DNA of 33,453 nt from NCBI GenBank assembly GCA_031281465.1, contig JAITFH010000022.1:1-33453 (forward strand), written 5' to 3'. The position numbers and the translations under genes are program-made. Below, piece by piece: positions 6,412 through 29,323 of this stretch (position 1 is the stretch's first letter; every line of letters starts with the position of its first letter). Source of the DNA: Mycoplasmataceae bacterium (GTDB lineage Bacteria; Bacillota_I; Bacilli_A; Mycoplasmatales; Mycoplasmoidaceae). Under the pieces are notes generated by a model, which saw nothing but the letters and a program-made list of their open reading frames with translations, did no database searches and was not told the origin of the DNA.

Positions 6412-8195
6412 ATGAAAAATCATAAATTTTCTGCTCCGTTTTTAGCTGCTATTTCAGTCGCCTCTCTCTCTCTCTCTCTCTCTCTTTAGTATTAACTAAC
6501 TGTTCTAATTTTAACAACCAAAAATATGCTCCATACCAACAATTAGAAATAGCTAATGTATTTGAACCAATTTTAGATGGTCCTGATTTTATTAATCTAC
6601 CCGATGAATCAATAATCCTAAATAGGCTTAAACCTACTTCTGATCATGAAAATGATGTTTATATTGAAGAATTAGAAGTTTTTGATATTACAACAAAAAA
6701 CTGTAAAGTAAGAGCGAAAGTTTCTTATCACTATAAAATGAACCAATCAATCACTTTTACATACCCAGCTCCATATAAATTCAAGATTAATGATTTCTTC
6801 CCTAATGTTGATAAAAATTTAGCTGTTACCGATGGAACCTTACCTGCAGTTTGTCCAGATTACATTTCAGCTTACGATTTAAGTATGAACTATCATGATG
6901 TACCTTATCAAGGTAATCATGATCAGCCTAACCATTTTTATTGAGACGCAAGTGTTTTTGTTAATGATTCAGAACAAACACTTTATCAAAATGGAATAAA
7001 TAGTTTTTGAAGTTTGTTAAGTGGGTTGAAAGCAAAAATCGGAGATAGTGAAGTTTTATTTAATCGTAATCAGATAGATATTGAATCTATTACTGAAAAT
7101 GACGGAGGAACATTAGGAGTTGATAGTAGATATAAAGTAACGGTAAAAACAAAATCTGACTCAAACTTTTATGTTCCTAATACTAAGTTTGATTTCTATA
7201 TTGCAAAGAATGTGTATGAAGCAATCAGTGACTATACTACGTTAAAAACTAGAACAACTTTTACTGGAACAAATGATAGTAAGCATTATTACCTTTCTAA
7301 TAATATAAGTTGGGATGGAAGTGGAGAAATTTACACTGGAGATTTTCACGGTGTATTAGATGGTAGATGAAAAAAAATCACAACTACTAACAACACTATT
7401 AATTGAGATGATAATTCAACGGTTTTTGGGGGAGATGGATATTATCGTAATTTATATTTAACTTTACCTAATTGAAAAATGTCAGTCAATGGAAAAGTAA
7501 GTATATTTAATTCTGCTAATATAGAAAACTTATATTTAAATGCACATTTGAAGGCAGCTAAAGTTCGAGAAGGTGGAAATGGAAGTTGTGCAGGAATGCT
7601 TAGTAATATTATGGGTTCTGATACCTCAAATACTCCTTATAGCAACCGTAAAATTACAATCAAAAGAATATTTATTACGGGAGAAATAGATTTTTCTAAT
7701 ATATACCAGGTGGGAGATTACGAACCAATGACTGGAATAATTTCCGGTAGTTCTAATTTTAACGGTGGTAAAAACACTGTAAAAGTAGAGGATATTAATA
7801 CATATGTAAATTTTAAAGGTTTTAACGACATGGTTAAAATTGGCGGTTTTTTAAAAAAAACGGAAGGCTATTACTTTGGAGGAATATATGGTACAAGTAA
7901 ATCCGAAGAAAACAAGTCAACAATTTCTGTTTCTAATGGTTTTGGAGATGGACTAAGTTTGGAATATCCTTCACCATATGTTGGTCAGTTAGACGGAGGA
8001 ACCGCGACATATACTGAAAACAATATAAAATGAACGGTAGCTTCCACAACTGATCTTGATCGAAAAAAGATAGGTACATATGACACTTGTCTTGGTTATT
8101 ATGACAATCAAAAGCATTTCTCTGATTTGTGATGTATCCCTACCACTGATAACAGAGCAATTCCCCAACGCGCATGAGCAGCAGGAATTTTTTAG
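6412..8195 (+). CDS. Phase-variable lipoprotein A, currently off
   Basis: Predicted surface lipoprotein of unknown function, paralogous to the next gene. ATG 6412 starts a signal peptide (MKNHKFSAPFLAAISVAS) that runs into a (CT)12 tract at 6462-6485. In this copy number translation ends at TAG 6487-6489 after 25 residues. One CT fewer, or two more, joins the leader to the long downstream frame, which begins LVLTNCSN and would supply the lipid-attached Cys. The restored protein has 593 residues. A middle part (YYLSNNISW, GVLDGRW, NLYLTLPNW, IENLYLNAHL) looks like beta-helix or GLUG-type repeats; this fold is inference. The C-terminus is the conserved RAIPQRAWAAGIF. The downstream frame has no TAA or TAG across about 570 codons, so the gene is maintained rather than decayed. 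Confidence 0.75.
6462..6485 (+). repeat. (CT)12 contingency tract in the signal peptide of gene A
   Basis: Twelve uninterrupted CT units encode alternating Ser-Leu in the hydrophobic core of the signal peptide. The length puts the ATG out of frame with the mature protein. Changes of one unit by polymerase slippage would switch the gene on or off. Confidence 0.85.
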
Positions 8196-8228: not shown

Positions 8229-10000
8229 ATGCTAAATAAGAAAATATTTCGTTCATTTTTTTCATCAATATTAATCTCCACCCCCCCCTACTTTTTACAA
8301 CCAATTGCTCTAATTTCAACAGTCAAAAATATTCTCCTTACCAACAATTTAATTTAAGTGATGTATTTGAACCAACTTTAGATGGTCCAAATTTTTCTAC
8401 TATTCCTGATAAAGAGACAATATTGAATAGACTAAAACCTAAACCTGGTCATGAAGGAGATGTTTATATAGAAGAATTACAAGTGTTCGATATCACTCCT
8501 GGTGGTTGCAAAATCAAATCAGAAATATCTTGACACTACAAGATTACCTCGCAATTAGTTTTTACATACCCGGCACCATACCAGTTTAAAATTAATGATT
8601 TCTTTCCTAATATTGACAAAAACTTAGCTGTTACCGATGGAACCTTACCAACAGTTTGTCCAGATTACATTTCAGCTTACGATTTAAGTATGAACTACCA
8701 CGATGTGCCTTATCAAGGTAATCATGATCAACCTAACCATTTTTATTGGGATGAAAACGATTTTGTTAACAACCCAGCACAGACGCTCTATCAAACAGGA
8801 ATCAACAATCTTTGAAGTTTATTGACAAGTTTGAAAGCGAAAATCGGAGATGGTGAAGTTTTATTTAATCGTAATCAGGTAGATATTGAATCTATTACTG
8901 AAAACGATGGAGGTGTACTAGGTGTAGATAGCAGATACAAAGTAACGATAAAAACAAGACCTGATTCTAATTTTTATGTTCCCAATACTAAGTTTGATTT
9001 CTATATTGCGAAGAATGTGTATGAAAAAATTACTAATTACGGAGAATTAACTAATCCAAGTATTTTTACAGGTTTGACAAAACACTATTATTTGGATAAC
9101 GACATAGCATGAGAAACTGCAAATAAAAATGAAATAAAAATTCTTAATTTTGATGGTGTTTTAGATGGTAGATGAAAGAAAATTGATTCTAAAGGAACTT
9201 TCAACTATGCTGGTAATTCGGTATGTTTTTCTGGAGGTGCGAAATTTAGAAATCTATATTTAACAATTAATAATACAAAAACTTACTGAAATAGTGGTAG
9301 TGGCATCGTAGATAGTTCTGGAACTTCTATTTTTAGTAATTGTGATATTGAAAATCTATATTTAAATGCTAAAATTCAAGCGAGCGATAATATTAAAAAT
9401 TCTAATGGAATTGGTTTTCTTGCTAAAAAGCTTTTTGAAAACCCTAGTGGAAATGCATATGCAAAACGTCATTTAGTGTGAAAAAGAATTTATTTAACAG
9501 GAGAACTTGATTTTAGTAAACTTAGTACTTCTGGGACATGAGAACCGATGGCAGGAGTACTTTTTCCGGTAGCATGATATAAAAAAGGTTCGAATAATAA
9601 TACCTTAACTGTTGAAGATGTTAATTCTTGAGTTAATTTTAAAGGTTATCCAGCAACCATTGGAGGAACAACTTTTAATAGCCAACAAGGAAGATGATTT
9701 GGATACGCAAGAAATGATGATGACACTACTAATACAGATTTTAGTATTACTAATTTGTTTTATGACGGTTCAAATAAAATAGCTCCTAGTAGAGATTATG
9801 TCTCTGTAAAGGATGTGCCATTTAATACCACTAATACCAAAACACTACTTACTACCACCGATGATAGAACTAAAATTTCAACTTATCGAGGCATACTTGG
9901 TAAGTATCAAAATGTAGAACACTTTAACGATTTATGATGTATCCCTCAATCTGTTGGACGTCCTATTCCCCAACGTGCATGAGCAGCAGGAATTTTTTAG
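8229..10000 (+). CDS. Phase-variable lipoprotein B, paralogue of A, currently off
   Basis: Paralogue of the preceding gene, sharing long stretches such as PDYISAYDLSMNYHDVPYQG and FYVPNTKFDFYIAKNVYE. ATG 8229 gives the leader MLNKKIFRSFFSSILIS, followed by a run of eight C at 8281-8288. In this state the frame ends at TAA 8355-8357 after 42 residues. Nine C (or six) would join the leader to LLFTTNCSN and then to 590 residues in total, with Cys as the expected lipid-attachment site. Both the length and the C-terminus (RPIPQRAWAAGIF) match gene A. Several internal TGA codons are Trp. The ligand or role of this family is unknown to me. A surface-exposed, antigen-like or adhesin role is inferred only from the lipobox and phase variation. 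A homopolymer sequencing error is an alternative explanation for the frame. Confidence 0.75.
8281..8288 (+). repeat. C8 contingency tract in the signal peptide of gene B
   Basis: A homopolymer of eight C inside leader codons encoding Pro. Adding one C restores the reading frame to the mature lipoprotein, the usual arrangement of a slipped-strand switch. Confidence 0.8.
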
Positions 10001-17430: not shown

Positions 17431-18282
17431 TTATTCATTTTTTGTTAGAATATTTAATAATTCATTTTCTTCAGAAAAACAATTTTCTCCTGTAAGGGAA
17501 ATTGTTAGACTTCCAAGTTTGTAATTTCCTTCCTTTTCAAATTTCAAAATCGGTATAATGTTGGGATTCACCAGTTTAATTTGTGTATCATTTGTGTAAG
17601 TATACGATTTGACGTATTCTTCGTCCTCGTTTTTATATTTAGAATATATAGCATCTAGATGTTTGTTTTTTCCTTTTCCTATTTCTTCAATTAGTTCTAA
17701 AATAGTTTTACCGGTATGCAATTTATCTATTAAAACAACAGTAAAGAAAACTGTTTTTTTGGGATTAAAACAAGGCAATTGTCGAAAATCTATATAAATT
17801 TCTTTTTTATATCTAGTAGTTGTTTTTACCTCAATATAAATTTCTTTAGTAAAAGAAAAATCAAATAATTCGTTAATTTTTGTATCGGAATTTATTTGAT
17901 AATATTTTGCTCATTCTATTTCATTTTTTTCTAAAAAATAAATAAAAACAACTTCTCCTAAATCTCCTAAAAGTGTGTGTTCTTTCTGTTGTCTATTTCA
18001 AAACTCTCCAAAATTCTCTATATTTTTTAGAAACGGAATAGATTTGTCGTATTCCGTTTCTATTAAATTTCAAAGAAATGTTTTGAAGTTTGAAGAAATA
18101 TTAGAAAACTCATACTTTTTATACAATAACCCATTGTCAATTAAATTACCATTTTGTTTTACATGTTTTAAGTTAGAAGAAGTATATGTTTTCACCAATT
18201 CTTCTTTAACAGCTAAAATAAAACTAGTATCGTTATTATCGTTCACCCAAAAAAAATTCTTTACTTTTCTTTCCATAAACAT
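17431..18282 (-). CDS. PD-(D/E)XK nuclease, last gene of the GHKL-Z1 operon
   Basis: A 283-residue protein with the restriction-endonuclease core: GDLGE (Glu110), then FDF (Asp141) and IYIEVKT (Glu151, Lys153), the D-x(n)-E-x-K catalytic pattern. This resembles the PD-(D/E)XK (DUF4420-type) proteins found beside Z1 and GHKL ATPase genes. It probably cuts DNA under control of its partners. The start is ATG 18280-18282 (a second ATG lies two codons later), overlapping the end of the Z1 gene by 22 bases. Such tight overlap indicates translational coupling. An A7 run in the coding strand near 17754-17760 could slip. In-frame TGA codons are Trp. The family assignment rests on motifs and context. 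Confidence 0.72.
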
Positions 18283-19625
18283 AACTTATTTAAAAGTTCG
18301 GGTTTTCCTTCAACATATTTTATTATTTCATTTTGAGTTTTTCCTTGCAAATTATAAAATCCAACAATAAATTCTTTGCTTTCTTCCTCGGTGAATACTT
18401 TGTAAATGTTTTCTGAACACAAAACTGTTATATATTTATATCTGTCGAATGATTCGACGTATTCTTTATTCTCACGTCTGTACCCAAATCATCTAGCTCT
18501 TTGTAGCAATGAATCGATCTGAGGTTTTTCTCCGGAATTCATTATTAGTTCTGTTGTGAGATATTTATAAGTAAATCCTCTGGAAAGTTTTGTTCCGCCG
18601 ATTATACATATATATTTTTTACTGCCTGAAATATAGTTTTCTTTTGTTCTTCCGTTACTGATAACAATATTTTGTTGTATATCTAAAGTATTCACAATTC
18701 TTTTCATTCCTTTTCATGTTTCAACAAAAATTTCTTTGTTTTTAAATTTTTGCTTCCAAGCATTTTCTTTTATTACTTGTTCCAAAACTTTTGGCCAGCT
18801 GTTTTGAGATAAGAAAATAATTTTTATTAATTCTTCCCTAATTTCATCATGCTTCTCCGTTAAAGAATCAATATTTATTAAAAATTCACTTTTTTCATTA
18901 GGAAATTCTTTCTCGATTAAATATGTGTCATACAAAAAAATAAAGAAAGAAACCAAAATAGATTTATTAATTTTTTTACTTTGTTTATTATCTTCTAAGC
19001 AAAGATATATATCTGATTTTAAATTATAAAAAAATTCATATCCACAGTAATATTTATTTGGTTCTAAAAAAATAATTTTATCATAATATTCCGGATTTTT
19101 CCTAATAAATTCGATATTCTTAAACGGGGTAGCGGTTATAGAATAAAAACACCCATCCGATTTTTTTGTTATGTCTTTTAAATTAGTTAGCGTTTCGTGA
19201 ATAAGCCCGTCATTTCCACTAATCGAAAAATAATCAGCTTCGTCATCGAAAATAAATAACCGTCTATTTCAATTAAAATACTTTAGTTTATTGTTTATTT
19301 TTTCAAAGTTGCTGCCTTCTTTCATAATAACTAATAAGACTTTATTTTTTTTGTATATACTGTAGTTTTGGAAATACATTTCATAGTCCGAAAAGATATT
19401 CATTCCTTTTTTTTCAAATCTTTCTTTAGTTTGTTTAAGCAAATCTGTTGTCGTACCCCCGAAAACAATAATCGTAAATCCTTCACAAGTGTTTTCGTAA
19501 GTTTCATAGATATTTTCAATTTCTCTCAATATATAGTTTGTTTTCCCACTTTGAACTTGTCCAATAACTAAAATAGAATTGGTTGGAATATATTCATAAA
19601 TAGTAGAATCAAAATTATTACTCAT
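18261..19625 (-). CDS. Z1-domain helicase-like ATPase
   Basis: A 454-residue NTPase. The N-terminal half has Walker A GQVQSGKT (residues 22-29), Walker B FDDEAD (126-131) and an SF2 motif III SITATPF. The C-terminal half has the Z1 signature GGTKLSRGFT (from about residue 343) and LLQRARWFGYR (373-383), including the arginine-rich helicase-like motif VI region. Z1 proteins occur in operons with MutL/MORC-type GHKL ATPases and restriction nucleases, where they are thought to move along or remodel DNA. It starts 8 bases inside the end of the GHKL gene and runs 22 bases into the nuclease gene. From memory most Z1 proteins are much longer, so this looks like a compact version. Confidence 0.82.
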
Positions 19626-21393
19626 CTTCGGTTAAATAATTAAGGATTTCGTCAACCAATTTAATAAAATCAAATTCATTTAAATCGATACGCTCGAATA
19701 TTTCATTATCTTTTTCTTCGAATCTTATTTTTATAAGAGAAAAACAAATAGCAAACACTCCAATAGCATTAGAAAAAGTGCCTTTATTTTTCTTTGCATC
19801 AATCATGTCTTTCCAAACTTTATGTGAAGAATTAATGTAAATGTAGTGTCTATTAATGTCTCCAGGAAAAATTCCTTCATTAGGACCATGAGCAATTAGA
19901 AGAGGATTGTTATATTCAAGCTCAGGTACTAATTTTAAGCAAAATTCGTATGGTTTTTCTTTGATTTCTAACTTAAACCATTTTTCGTTTTCACCATTAA
20001 TGTTTTTATCTTCAACTTTAAATTTTTTAGCGAGTTTCATTTCCTTAAGTAAATTTTCTTGTTTCTTTTTAATTGGAATATCTTTCGCTTCTATTTTCTT
20101 TTCGATGTTTTTTAAAAATATATCTCTAAAAACATCTTTAATTATTGGTTTCATATCGTTTAAAAAATTTTGTATATCAGCACTAATTTTCTTACCATTA
20201 TCTGTTTGTCAACTAAAGTCTTTTTTATTTTTTTGTGTCAAAACAACACCGGTTAAATCAATCTCCATAATAAGTCTGGTAGAAAAATCGTTATCATCAT
20301 TAACGAGTGGATAACAACCGAATGAAGTAAGTTTTTGAGAACCAGCGTTATGAGATTCGTTTGGAGAATGACATATATATCTTCCTGCCTCACTAAAATA
20401 ACCACCATGTAAAGAACGGAATTGATGTTCTTCGTCACTTATTCCACATGAGTTATTTAAAAATCCTCAGTACACTTTAATTTTCATTTTTTCTTCAGTT
20501 TCATTTCCATTGATGTCGATTTTTTGATATTCTGTTTCGGGCGAGAATGAAAATTTTACATAACTTTCAATACTTTTATCCCTAATACTTTTAATAATTA
20601 ATTCTTTAAGTTTAGTACAACCGTATTTTTCCAAAGTAGCATTATATTTATCAATTTCAATCTTATTGATGGCGGAAATTATTTTATCTTCATTACTAAT
20701 AATTTCATATTTTTCTTCCTTTCCTTTTGCTTTTATACTGGTGTAAAATGTACTAAAATTTCATCACGAAATATCTTTGTAATCAAGTTCGTGATTATTG
20801 ATTTGTATTTTCAATCCTTCTTTAATAAATTTACAATATCTTAAACTTAAAATGCTTTCAACTTTTCCTAAATATTCTTTTATAGAAGGGTAATGATTTA
20901 TATCTTCAACTATAATCACCGTTCCTCTTTCTAACTCTAAACTAGACGGTACGCATTCTGTTTCAATGTTTGCACTTTCATCGTATTTTTTTTCATTCAT
21001 ATATCAAAATGACATCTTTTCTTCTTCCTCTCTTTTTGATTTAATTTCTATACTTTTTCCGGTTCAGAAAAGAGCTAGCTTCATCCCTACACCATGTGCT
21101 CCTAGTTCACCAGCATTGGTGTTTTGATTTTTGGGCATAATTGCTTCAGCTAGTTCTTCATCGTTCATACCGTAGGCATTGTCCTCAATTGTAAATTTAT
21201 AATCTTCTTTTTCTTTATCTTCATCATATTTAATTTTAACAGTCAAACCTCTGATGTTAGAATTGTTTTTTTGTCATGAATTAATTGAATTATCTATAAA
21301 TTCACATAAACAAAATCCGATGTTGGTTTGTTCTTTTTTTCATTCAAGATGCACATCTCTTCATGTTTTTTCTCCATATTTCCTAACCGCCAT
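19618..21393 (-). CDS. GHKL ATPase, MutL/MORC-like
   Basis: A 591-residue ATPase of the gyrase/Hsp90/MutL superfamily. The Bergerat fold is complete: N box EFIDNSINS (Glu31, Asn35), G1 box EDNAYGM (Asp71, Gly75), and G2 box GELGAHGVGMK (residues 95-105). A transducer-like region follows, with a Lys-bearing GVVLTQKNKKDF loop. The rest is charged and partly helical. In conflict systems such ATPases are proposed to clamp DNA and gate the nuclease. ATG 21391-21393 is chosen because it places the N box at the expected distance from the N-terminus. It overlaps the upstream gene by 11 bases. Five or more TGA codons are Trp. It could alternatively belong to Hsp90-like ATPases without DNA function, but the neighbours argue for a restriction-type role. 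Confidence 0.82.
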
Positions 21394-22633
21394 AATGTCT
21401 CAAAACTTCCTCCTTTTCGTCTTGATTATTCCATATACTTGGATTTCTTAGTTCGATTTCATCGAGGATTTTTCTTACATTTTCTCTTTTGTTACTATAC
21501 CATTTTTCTAGATTGTTTTTTTCTATTCGGTAAAGTTTTTCATATTCTTCACATTCGATATCCAAATGAATGCCTAAGTGTGTCAAAGGTTTTCATAATT
21601 GAGGTTCTCCAAGTACATAGTAATCAAAAGCTTTTCTATTTGATGCAAACAATAATTCGAACCTATTAGGAATTCCGGTTTTTTCTTTTATCATTTCTTC
21701 TAAACTTAAACCAAACATGCAGCAAACACAGCCGGATCTGAGGTAACCTTTTGGTAAACGAGATTCCCTATCTAGTTTGTATACTGGTGAAACTTCGATA
21801 TTTTTCTCTACAATAAAATTTCAAATATCTTTTTCTGTTCATAAAGATAAAGGCTTGCAAGTTGCTGGTTTCCCTTTTTCATACCCTATACACCCATATT
21901 TAAGTCATGTATTTCTTCTTAATCTTGATTCCTGAATAGTTGTGCCAATAAAAACTGGTCTTTTATCGTGTTTAACAGGACCTTTGATAAAATCACAACA
22001 CTTGTGAGAAATTTTATAATCACACAACTCTTTATCTAAAAAATGTATGTATTTAATTGGTAGCACTCCAAAAATTTTATTATCTAAACCTAGTGTTGCT
22101 CGGATATATGTTTTGTGGTTTTGTGTATTCCTGATATGAGAAATTTTCTGAGCAAGTTGTTTAGATATCATTGGGATACCATCTTGCTTAATTAGTTTGT
22201 CAAACGATTTAATTCATGGTAAAATGACATCTCTCTCTCTCTCTCTAGACATATCTTTAATAAATTTAAAAGTTTCTGGATGGAAAATTTCCATTGCGGT
22301 AATGGTAGGGAAATATTCTGATATTCCCATTTCCTTTTGTACTTCGTCTACAAGATATTTTAAAACACAACTGTCTTTTCCACCCGAAAAACTAATCATA
22401 ATTTCTTGATTAGGTAAAGATTCAATGAATTCTTTAATCCTAGCTTTAGCCATAATCACTTTATCTTGTAAAGTTAAATCTTTGAAAAATTTACTTGGAA
22501 CATTTAATTGAGTGTATTGATTATTTTCGAAAACTTGATAAACCACTCCCGGCATTTTTTCTTTATTTGCTAAAAAATTAAGTCTTATCCTTGCTTCTGA
22601 TATAACTGATACTTCGTCGTAAATATTAGCCAT
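21383..22633 (-). CDS. PAPS-reductase/DndC-like PP-loop protein, phase-variable
   Basis: A 416-residue member of the PAPS-reductase (adenine nucleotide alpha-hydrolase) superfamily. It has the PP-loop SFSGGKDS (residues 81-88), GTTIQESRLRR, CKPLSLWTEKDIW, and a Cys-rich GCVCCMFG near the C-terminus that could hold an Fe-S cluster with other cysteines. The closest relatives I recall are phage-type PAPS reductases, IbrA and the DNA phosphorothioation enzyme DndC. It is the first gene of the overlapping operon, ahead of the GHKL ATPase, Z1 and nuclease genes, in the place where a methyltransferase would be expected. Codons 130-134 (RERER) are a (GA)8 tract, in frame in this copy. A TATAAT lies at 22645-22650. 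Whether it modifies DNA with sulfur is inference. Confidence 0.78.
22231..22246 (-). repeat. (AG)8 contingency tract inside the PP-loop gene
   Basis: Eight AG units on the coding strand (CT on the plus strand) encode the Arg-Glu run after residue 129. Gain or loss of one unit would shift the frame and remove the C-terminal two thirds, including the conserved CKPL and Cys-rich motifs. The gene is in the on state. Confidence 0.75.
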
Positions 22634-28120: not shown

Positions 28121-29323
28121 CTAAATCTCGATTTCACCTAAAAGAAATTTTTCAATATCAATCAAAGTAATTCCTTTTATTTGACCAACACTTATTTCGA
28201 GCGTAAATATTATTTTTTCATATCCATCTTTCATATTCAATAAACTTCTAGTCTCTCTTTCGAAATTCTCATCATTTAGTGAATGACAAACCTGGATATA
28301 TTTGATAGTATTATTTTTCTTAATGATAAAATCAATTTCATTTTTATATCTATCAGTTCCTGTGTAAACTTCATATCCTGCTTCTAGAAGTTTTAATAGA
28401 ACTGCATTTTCTAAACGATATCCAAAATTAAAATCAATTTTATCAGAAGTAGAATAAGTTAATAAACCTAAATCTGTGGCATAGTATTTTGCTTTTGTTT
28501 GAAGTATTGCTTTCCTACGAACATCGTAGTATTTAACTTTGTAAAACAAGTAAGCCACTATTAATCAGTTAAAATAATTTAAAATTGTTTTTTTAGATAA
28601 TACAAGTTCATTGTTGGATTTTAAATAATTTTCAATGTTTGTAGCGGAAGTATTTCTTCCAACATGGTTATATAAAAATTTACTAATTTTTTCAATACCA
28701 CTAGTTTCTTGGATACGATGTCTGGTTTTGACATCTTTTACCAAACATCCTTGATAAACTTTTTCTATCGTATTTATAGTTTTAGAAAAATCTTTGTAGG
28801 TGGGTATAGTTATTCCTAAACCACCAGAAAGAAGATATTTGTTAAAAGCATTACTATTAGGAGTTGAATCAAAAATAGAAATCAATATCTCTTTATAGCT
28901 GATAGGAAAAACTTCTATTTCACTAACCCTACCGGTAAAAAGAGAAACCAATTCGGTAGAAAACATTTTGGAGTTTGAACCTGTAATATAAATATCGTAC
29001 TTAAATTTTTTATGACTGTACAAAGTAATTACAGCTTTTTCAAATTCTTTTATTTCTTGTATTTCATCTAGAAAAATATAGTTTGTAACTCCAAAATTAC
29101 TTTTGGACTCAATATAACTTATAAGCTTTTCTCAATCATATTGTTTTACTAAACGAGCATCGTTAAAATCAAACTCTATAACATTCTCGTTTTTCAAAGT
29201 GTTTTTAAATTGGTTAAGAATCGTTGTTTTACCAACATTTCTTATTCCGGTTAAAACTTTAATGAAGTTGGTATTTTGTTCACTTCTTAACCAATCTAAA
29301 TATTTATACCTCGGTATTTCCAT
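28121..29323 (-). CDS. AAA_14/DUF4143 ATP-binding protein
   Basis: A 400-residue ATPase. The N-terminal AAA domain has Walker A GIRNVGKTT (residues 26-34), Walker B YIFLDEIQ (82-89) and a sensor-like TGSNSKM. The C-terminal DUF4143 domain has the pattern GYRLENAVLLKLL, then NEIDFIIKKNNTIKYIQV, which resembles a PD-(D/E)XK-type fold although the final Lys is not conserved. Such proteins are common in accessory regions and in small genomes that live in hosts, with no settled role; links to conflict systems have been proposed. Trp residues at TGA join the frame. A TATAAC lies 6 bases before the ATG and an array of inverted repeats fills the upstream 420 bases. Confidence 0.85.

Follow-up and report, generated by a model that had tools for sequence, protein, structure and literature searches.

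What would distinguish self DNA in a restriction-like operon that carries no DNA methylase? The question is raised by a four-gene operon in a 33,453-nucleotide stretch from a Mycoplasmataceae bacterium (assembly GCA_031281465.1, contig JAITFH010000022.1, positions 1 to 33,453; hereafter the window), which is part of a 1.25-Mb draft genome (G000). The operon encodes a PP-loop enzyme of the PAPS-reductase type (P0001), a MORC-type GHKL ATPase (P0002), a Z1-domain superfamily II (SFII) helicase (P0003), and a predicted PD-(D/E)XK nuclease (P0004). We consider it fairly probable that the operon is a restriction-modification system subject to phase variation: a sulfur-transferring PP-loop enzyme would mark self DNA, and the MORC-Z1-nuclease module would attack unmarked DNA. 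Besides gene content and motifs, this proposal draws on the exchange of the PP-loop enzyme with methylases and DndC in homologous cassettes, its co-occurrence with the cassette, its homology to DndC, and a repeat tract within its gene.

Gene products of the operon

Read with code 11, the gene region yielded only fragments, while code 4 (TGA=W) gave four intact open reading frames (ORFs) with 20 TGA codons across the four genes. Use of this code, together with the small genomes of the relatives, suggests a mollicute. Consecutive genes, from P0001 to P0004, overlap by 11, 8, and 22 bp on one strand, bearing out the overlapping operon proposed in an earlier, sequence-only reading of this DNA. That reading had also seen no methyltransferase in the locus, and neither family profiles nor motifs revealed a methylase in any gene called within the window. 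Of the Pfam matches it anticipated, PAPS_reduct for P0001 (4e-11), HATPase_c_3 for P0002 (1e-17), and Z1 for P0003 (7e-17) all exceeded the curated cut-offs, while P0004 gave just a sub-threshold match to NOV_C (0.003).

The Cys-rich C-terminus attributed to P0001 is described more exactly as five cysteines that are invariant in the PP-loop family (C212, C213, C248, C302, and C305). Its AlphaFold2 model (predicted local distance difference test score, pLDDT, 87) has as its closest solved folds PAPS/APS reductases, FAD synthase, and the [4Fe-4S] sulfurtransferases TtuA/LarE. Alignment with the DndC family by hhalign (prob 98, E 1e-13) identifies P0001, at the level of sequence, as a homologue of DndC, yet not DndC itself (see below). 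A scan of the genome collection with P0001 returned three distant CysH/CysD-like proteins and was uninformative.

The family profile of P0002 matches SMCHD1 and human MORC2/3/4 structures, and its invariant residues (E31, D34-N35, D71, G75, K105, and N389-K390) leave the ATP-binding motifs expected of a MORC-like GHKL protein apparently intact. P0003 carries the SFII motifs QSGKT, DDEAD, and TAT, followed by DSLLQRARWFG, which corresponds to the Z1 signature DThhQXuRhFG with S for T. For P0004, the family-invariant residues E110, D141, K153, and Q168, with E151-x-K153 (E-D-ExK-Q), point to a PD-(D/E)XK nuclease, and a gene in the same position in locus L242 matches DUF4420 (putative PD-(D/E)XK) at 4e-6; a fold search of the PDB gave nothing meaningful, and a profile search of PDB sequences gave nothing. 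Thus, the GHKL and Z1 identities suggested previously are confirmed by profiles, while the nuclease remains a prediction from conserved residues and weak profile matches, with the fold search empty.

The P0001 gene contains an (AG)8 tract, in which the gain or loss of one or two units was computed to cut the product to 140-147 aa. We predict that this tract is a phase-variation switch, currently ON. Non-AT repeat tracts occur in, or up to 150 bp upstream of, 12/40 family PP-loop genes, compared with 3/391 for the remaining genes of those loci (p 3e-11); since four of these twelve belong to one lineage and a 46-C tract in L035 lies at a contig end, the independent cases are fewer, with at least five placements still differing. 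In L027, L041, and L042, the sequence past the (AG)n tract encodes the conserved C-terminal tail in a different frame, and a similar tail may be out of frame in L040, as expected for switched copies. A length-dependent frameshift tract together with relatives in other frames is, judging from the DNA, what a phase-variable gene would present. A run of 12 AG repeats that ends in a stop is also found in a Type III methylase gene of a mycoplasma (available part of PMC3498834), so in its genetics the PP-loop gene resembles the modification genes of mollicutes. The PP-loop genes of L036 and L037 are interrupted close to a G8/G9 tract.

Partners of the GHKL-Z1 module and of the PP-loop family

Z1 proteins in the loci of the bacterial family are of two kinds, one long (~700 aa) and one short (~440-510 aa), the latter being that of the window. 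C5-methylases stand beside GHKL-Z1 in many long-Z1 operons, several of them in this family (L082, L083, L087, and L093). L098 has, in the position of the PP-loop gene of the window and with a 16-bp overlap into the GHKL gene, an N6-methylase-like protein (motifs EPSAGCGDF and GNPPF) that matches no Pfam family. The same short-Z1 module in sister family f5 is accompanied by a C5-methylase (L226 and L229), a D12 or N6/N4 methylase (L228, L230, and L238), or an LDPPY-motif methylase-like protein (L232). In L240, L241, L242, and L244, the position is taken by DndC (TIGR03183, 324-339 bits; cut-off 290.4), and in L257, from a third family, DndC stands beside GHKL-Z1, with a genome-level TIGR03183 match over the cut-off. 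Because homologous cassettes carry methylases, DndC, or the PP-loop family at this point, the PP-loop enzyme of the window can be said, by gene position, to stand in the place of a methylase. The replacement proposed in the sequence-only reading therefore stands, and such loci do not always carry a methyltransferase. A separate DNPPF-motif methylase-like gene in L049 overlaps a PP-loop gene that is cut by the contig end.

Neither DndD nor DndE was detected in seven f5 genomes (those of L240, L241, L242, and L244 included, and with G157, G198, G321, and G344 among them) or in G000 (DndD, none over the cut-off; DndE, no match), in a search that left out the third-family genome G061 and that a divergent DndE could escape. 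The DndE model was positive on the canonical loci L258 and L264, from relatives in the same class, where a DndD-like ATPase and DndE stand beside DndC. Carriers of DndC had a Z1 cassette in 8/8 cases in the order and in 10/14 in a phylum sample of 392 genomes (Fisher 2.6e-7; relatedness ignored). Downstream of the module in L228, L231, and L233, a sub-cut-off DndC is found with a protein of ~290-390 aa and a GmrSD_N-like protein; this trio recurs, and its 290-390 aa member has no family match. The window Z1 clusters with the Z1 proteins of these three loci (SH-like approximate likelihood ratio test, SH-aLRT, 95; quick tree, long branch).

The four-gene set was found again in many relatives. 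A family-wide search of 95 genomes recovered the PP-loop family in 36 and Z1 in 30, and the PP-loop gene was present in 21/22 short-Z1 genomes versus 15/73 others (Fisher 1.6e-10; relatedness ignored). The single exception, L097, starts at a contig edge in a genome that is 78% complete. The PP-loop gene adjoins the cassette, in varying gene order, in the window, L027, L034, L038, L040-L043, L045, L046, L060, L062, L074, L075, and L078.

Downstream of the closest relatives of the window PP-loop protein (52-57% identity) lies a single GmrSD_N/DUF262 gene (L031, L032, L033, L035, L036, L037, and L080). In the tree, the window protein is nested among these GmrSD_N-paired relatives, which calls for no fewer than two changes of partner. 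The partner loci thus show one PP-loop family paired with two restriction modules, and one module paired with methylases, DndC, or the PP-loop family.

The range beyond the phylum was sampled through viral contigs, phages, and plasmids only. A plasmid search with P0003 returned Z1 proteins with a cytosine methylase close by in 3/4 records examined, and no annotated PP-loop gene occurred in the examined stretches of those four records. A match of the PP-loop protein on a Butyrivibrio plasmid adjoins a Wadjet system, not a Z1 cassette, and distant PP-loop matches in G364 have no Z1 cassette near them; both were set aside. Single PP-loop homologues (~30% identity) also occur in many phages, within blocks of replication or structural genes (L108-L187; records H2-H19), and are possibly stand-alone viral DNA modifiers. 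DNA methylases were found near these homologues, within three genes, more often than far from them (19/384 versus 23/1060; one-sided p 0.006).

Coordinates of all features are given in Table 1. Genes flanking the operon include those for ribosomal protein L17, topoisomerase subunit A, an alpha/beta hydrolase, amino-acid permeases, and tyrosyl-tRNA synthetase. Elsewhere in the window there are an AAA_14/DUF4143 protein and a (CT)12 tract upstream of a neighbouring pair of similar genes, possibly a further phase-variable locus. G000 contains a second, diverged copy of the cassette (L027), in which an HNH_2 protein is encoded upstream, overlapping the PP-loop gene, as also in L040 and L042; as a sulfur-binding-domain nuclease, the L027 protein gave just a weak TagI-like HNH match (E 0.96), and we do not claim that function. 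The cassette of L040 includes a second GHKL protein, and that of L041 adjoins a DUF4143 protein matching the PADLOC candidate PDC-S01.

Table 1. Positions of the operon genes, their sequence features, and related loci.
Feature	Location	Strand	Remarks
P0001, PP-loop/PAPS-reductase-type enzyme	window 21383-22633	minus	416 aa; proposed sulfur-transferring modification enzyme
P0002, MORC-type GHKL ATPase	window 19618-21393	minus	591 aa
P0003, Z1-domain superfamily II helicase	window 18261-19625	minus	454 aa
P0004, predicted PD-(D/E)XK nuclease	window 17431-18282	minus	283 aa
PP-loop motif SGGKDS, residues 83-88	window 22370-22387	minus	almost invariant in family
CC pair C212, C213	window 21995-22000	minus	invariant
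CxxC, C302 + C305	window 21719-21730	minus	invariant; aligns with CxxC of APS reductase and DndC
(AG)8 repeat inside P0001 gene	window 22230-22245	minus	in frame from codon 130
(CT)12 tract	window 6462-6485		upstream of 6738-8195 and 8423-10000
AAA_14/DUF4143 protein	window 28121-29323
Second cassette copy	G000:C54 = L027:4068-10299		diverged
SufS-like cysteine desulfurase	G000:C60:8121-9236		in trans
DndC directly adjoining GHKL + Z1	L240:3655-8258, L241:6570-11244, L242:6771-11413, L244:6824-11454, L257:5120-9681
Two-gene PP-loop + GmrSD_N/DUF262 units	L031:622-4034, L032:3110-6047, L035:14931-17802, L036:10409-13085, L037:9342-12851
DndC-like trio	L228:8813-12914, L231:9074-12916, L233:9226-13065
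Second GHKL protein in cassette	L040:5688-7430
DUF4143 protein adjoining cassette	L041:415-1353
Methylase-like and cut PP-loop genes	L049:3-1263
MzaD-like nuclease, homologous locus	L082 6631-7566		weak match

Proposed mechanism and competing explanations

In the proposed mechanism, the PP-loop enzyme would use ATP to activate a phosphate (or base) in its target and then transfer sulfur, which may be supplied by a housekeeping SufS-like cysteine desulfurase encoded elsewhere in the genome (E 2e-110). The self-DNA mark would be sulfur, most likely a backbone phosphorothioate, standing in for the methylation of related operons. The MORC-type GHKL ATPase could act as an ATP-driven DNA clamp and the Z1 protein as a translocase, together finding unmarked DNA that the PD-(D/E)XK protein would cleave, and the (AG)n tract would toggle the modification protein on and off through slipped-strand mispairing. 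The sequence-only reading had suggested a sulfur or related mark; sulfur is favoured here since true DndC is found at the same position and the PP-loop protein shares features of DndC and APS reductase, with the reservation that P0001 is not DndC. That reading was also concerned that the desulfurase and the other Dnd proteins were missing; the SufS-like gene weakens the worry about the desulfurase.

Several observations weigh against this proposal. P0001 does not match the DndC model TIGR03183 (cut-off 290 bits), and no match was found in G000 at the E-value limit used; its best match in PADLOC is BrxP (3e-8), followed by SspD (2e-5), both weak. A known partner for target selection, be it DndD/DndE, SspB/SspC-like, or another, was not recognised, which would leave the PP-loop enzyme to work by itself or together with GHKL-Z1. 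Six genomes (L100-L105) have the PP-loop gene and the cassette at separate places, an arrangement that fits uneasily with one tight complex. In addition, the nuclease assignment of P0004 comes from motifs and weak profile matches, and the Fisher tests take no account of genome relatedness.

In a rival explanation, the sulfur mark might license or trigger an effector, SspE- or type IV-like, instead of shielding DNA, with the MORC-Z1-nuclease or GmrSD protein reading the mark. The closest PP-loop relatives pair with GmrSD_N/DUF262 proteins, whose fold is that of modification-dependent enzymes and of SspE, the DUF262-DUF1524 effector of Ssp phosphorothioation (PMC12707154), and L027, L040, and L042 encode an HNH_2-family protein together with, and upstream of, the PP-loop gene. 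Still, MORC-Z1-nuclease modules also carry ordinary methylases at the same position, where shielding is the simplest logic, and no sulfur-reading domain was recognised; we regard a licensing mark as unlikely.

The PP-loop protein might also not mark DNA at all, and instead thiolate RNA, conjugate a nucleobase to protein (QueC-like, as in type IV cyclic oligonucleotide-based antiphage signaling systems, CBASS), or make a nucleotide signal activating the other three proteins. PP-loop enzymes are chemically versatile, a precedent exists in the QueC family (available part of PMC13279940), and P0001 lies outside the DndC model, with a structural model resembling PAPS reductase, FAD synthase, and the thiolase TtuA. 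Against such a role stand the position shared with DNA methylases and DndC, the excess of DNA methylases around the phage homologues, and the lack of a QueC match, and it appears rather improbable to us. Far less credible is that the PP-loop gene merely happens to lie next to an ordinary MORC-Z1-nuclease module that has its methylase in another place: the six genomes in which gene and cassette are separate would agree with this, but the near-complete co-occurrence in short-Z1 genomes excludes mere coincidence, and the overlapping genes, the partnership repeated in several gene orders, and the exchange with methylases and DndC contradict it.

Comparison with known systems

The self-marking system that we propose is best compared with the third type of MORC operon, which combines a MORC/paraMORC protein, an SFII (Z1) helicase, and a nuclease of the restriction endonuclease fold, and which often, not universally, carries DNA methylases, mostly for cytosine (Iyer, Abhiman, Aravind 2008, available part of PMC2292703). 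The window operon likewise has a GHKL ATPase, a Z1 protein with DxxxQxxRxFG, and a separate E-D-ExK protein (weak profile matches) in one operon, but a PP-loop enzyme where a methylase is usual; a PP-loop gene is not mentioned for MORC-Z1 operons in the available part of that paper. In the open-access literature, with subscription journals and preprints outside the scope, we found no report in which a PP-loop enzyme or DndC accompanies a MORC-Z1 module.

MZA (mzaABCDE) and related systems of Z1, PD-(D/E)XK, and cytosine methylase have also been described (PMC9523054). The window GHKL and Z1 proteins weakly match MzaB and MzaC, and a homologous nuclease in L082 weakly matches MzaD, but the equivalog scores were not reached (MzaB, 17.8/850 bits; MzaC, 28.7/1500 bits), neither an AIPR protein nor a sigma factor was recognised in the operon or its flanking genes, and the window operon has the PP-loop enzyme in addition. 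By the sequence features tested, it is not MZA, nor is it a Dnd system.

With Dnd (DndABCDE) it shares a PP-loop enzyme homologous to DndC, true DndC in sister cassettes, and a cysteine desulfurase in trans, which agrees with the sulfur supply of Dnd and Ssp, whether dedicated or housekeeping. It differs in having MORC-Z1 in place of DndD/DndE, undetected in G000, and in that P0001 falls below DndC recognition. A recent census takes DndD/DndE as the core of Dnd (PMC10853773), so DndC loci without them could be missed. The likeness to Ssp (SspABCD-SspE) and type 4 of the bacteriophage exclusion (BREX) systems, with BrxP, consists of the PAPS-reductase-type enzyme and of relatives paired with SspE-like DUF262 proteins. 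DUF4007 (SspB) had no match in G000, nor in control genomes, and SspC and BREX genes (including PglZ, BrxC, and BrxL) were not recognised in the window, to which that search was confined.

DNA phosphorothioation is thought to require a scanning core, either DndD/DndE or SspB/SspC, and here DndC and a second, DndC-like lineage occupy the methylase position of a MORC-Z1-nuclease module. We therefore raise, tentatively and with more doubt than conviction, a third phosphorothioation architecture, in which DndC or a DndC-like enzyme would work without DndD/DndE or SspB/SspC, a MORC clamp and Z1 would scan for both modification and restriction, and a phase-variable modification gene would switch the sulfur epigenome of the population. 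Sulfur marking by a single enzyme, a contribution of MORC-family ATPases to reading a backbone mark, and sulfur-modified DNA in mollicutes, of which the literature surveyed held no report, thereby become testable, and the DndC-GHKL-Z1 loci (L240, L241, L242, L244, and L257) are probably the clearest experimental entry. As in M.MmyCI, the phase-variable mycoplasma Type III methylase (PMC3498834, in the part available), an AG repeat lies inside the modification gene and shifts the frame to a stop, but here the gene under the switch encodes a PP-loop enzyme, and a phase-variable sulfur mark, if true, would represent a switchable epigenome of a new kind.

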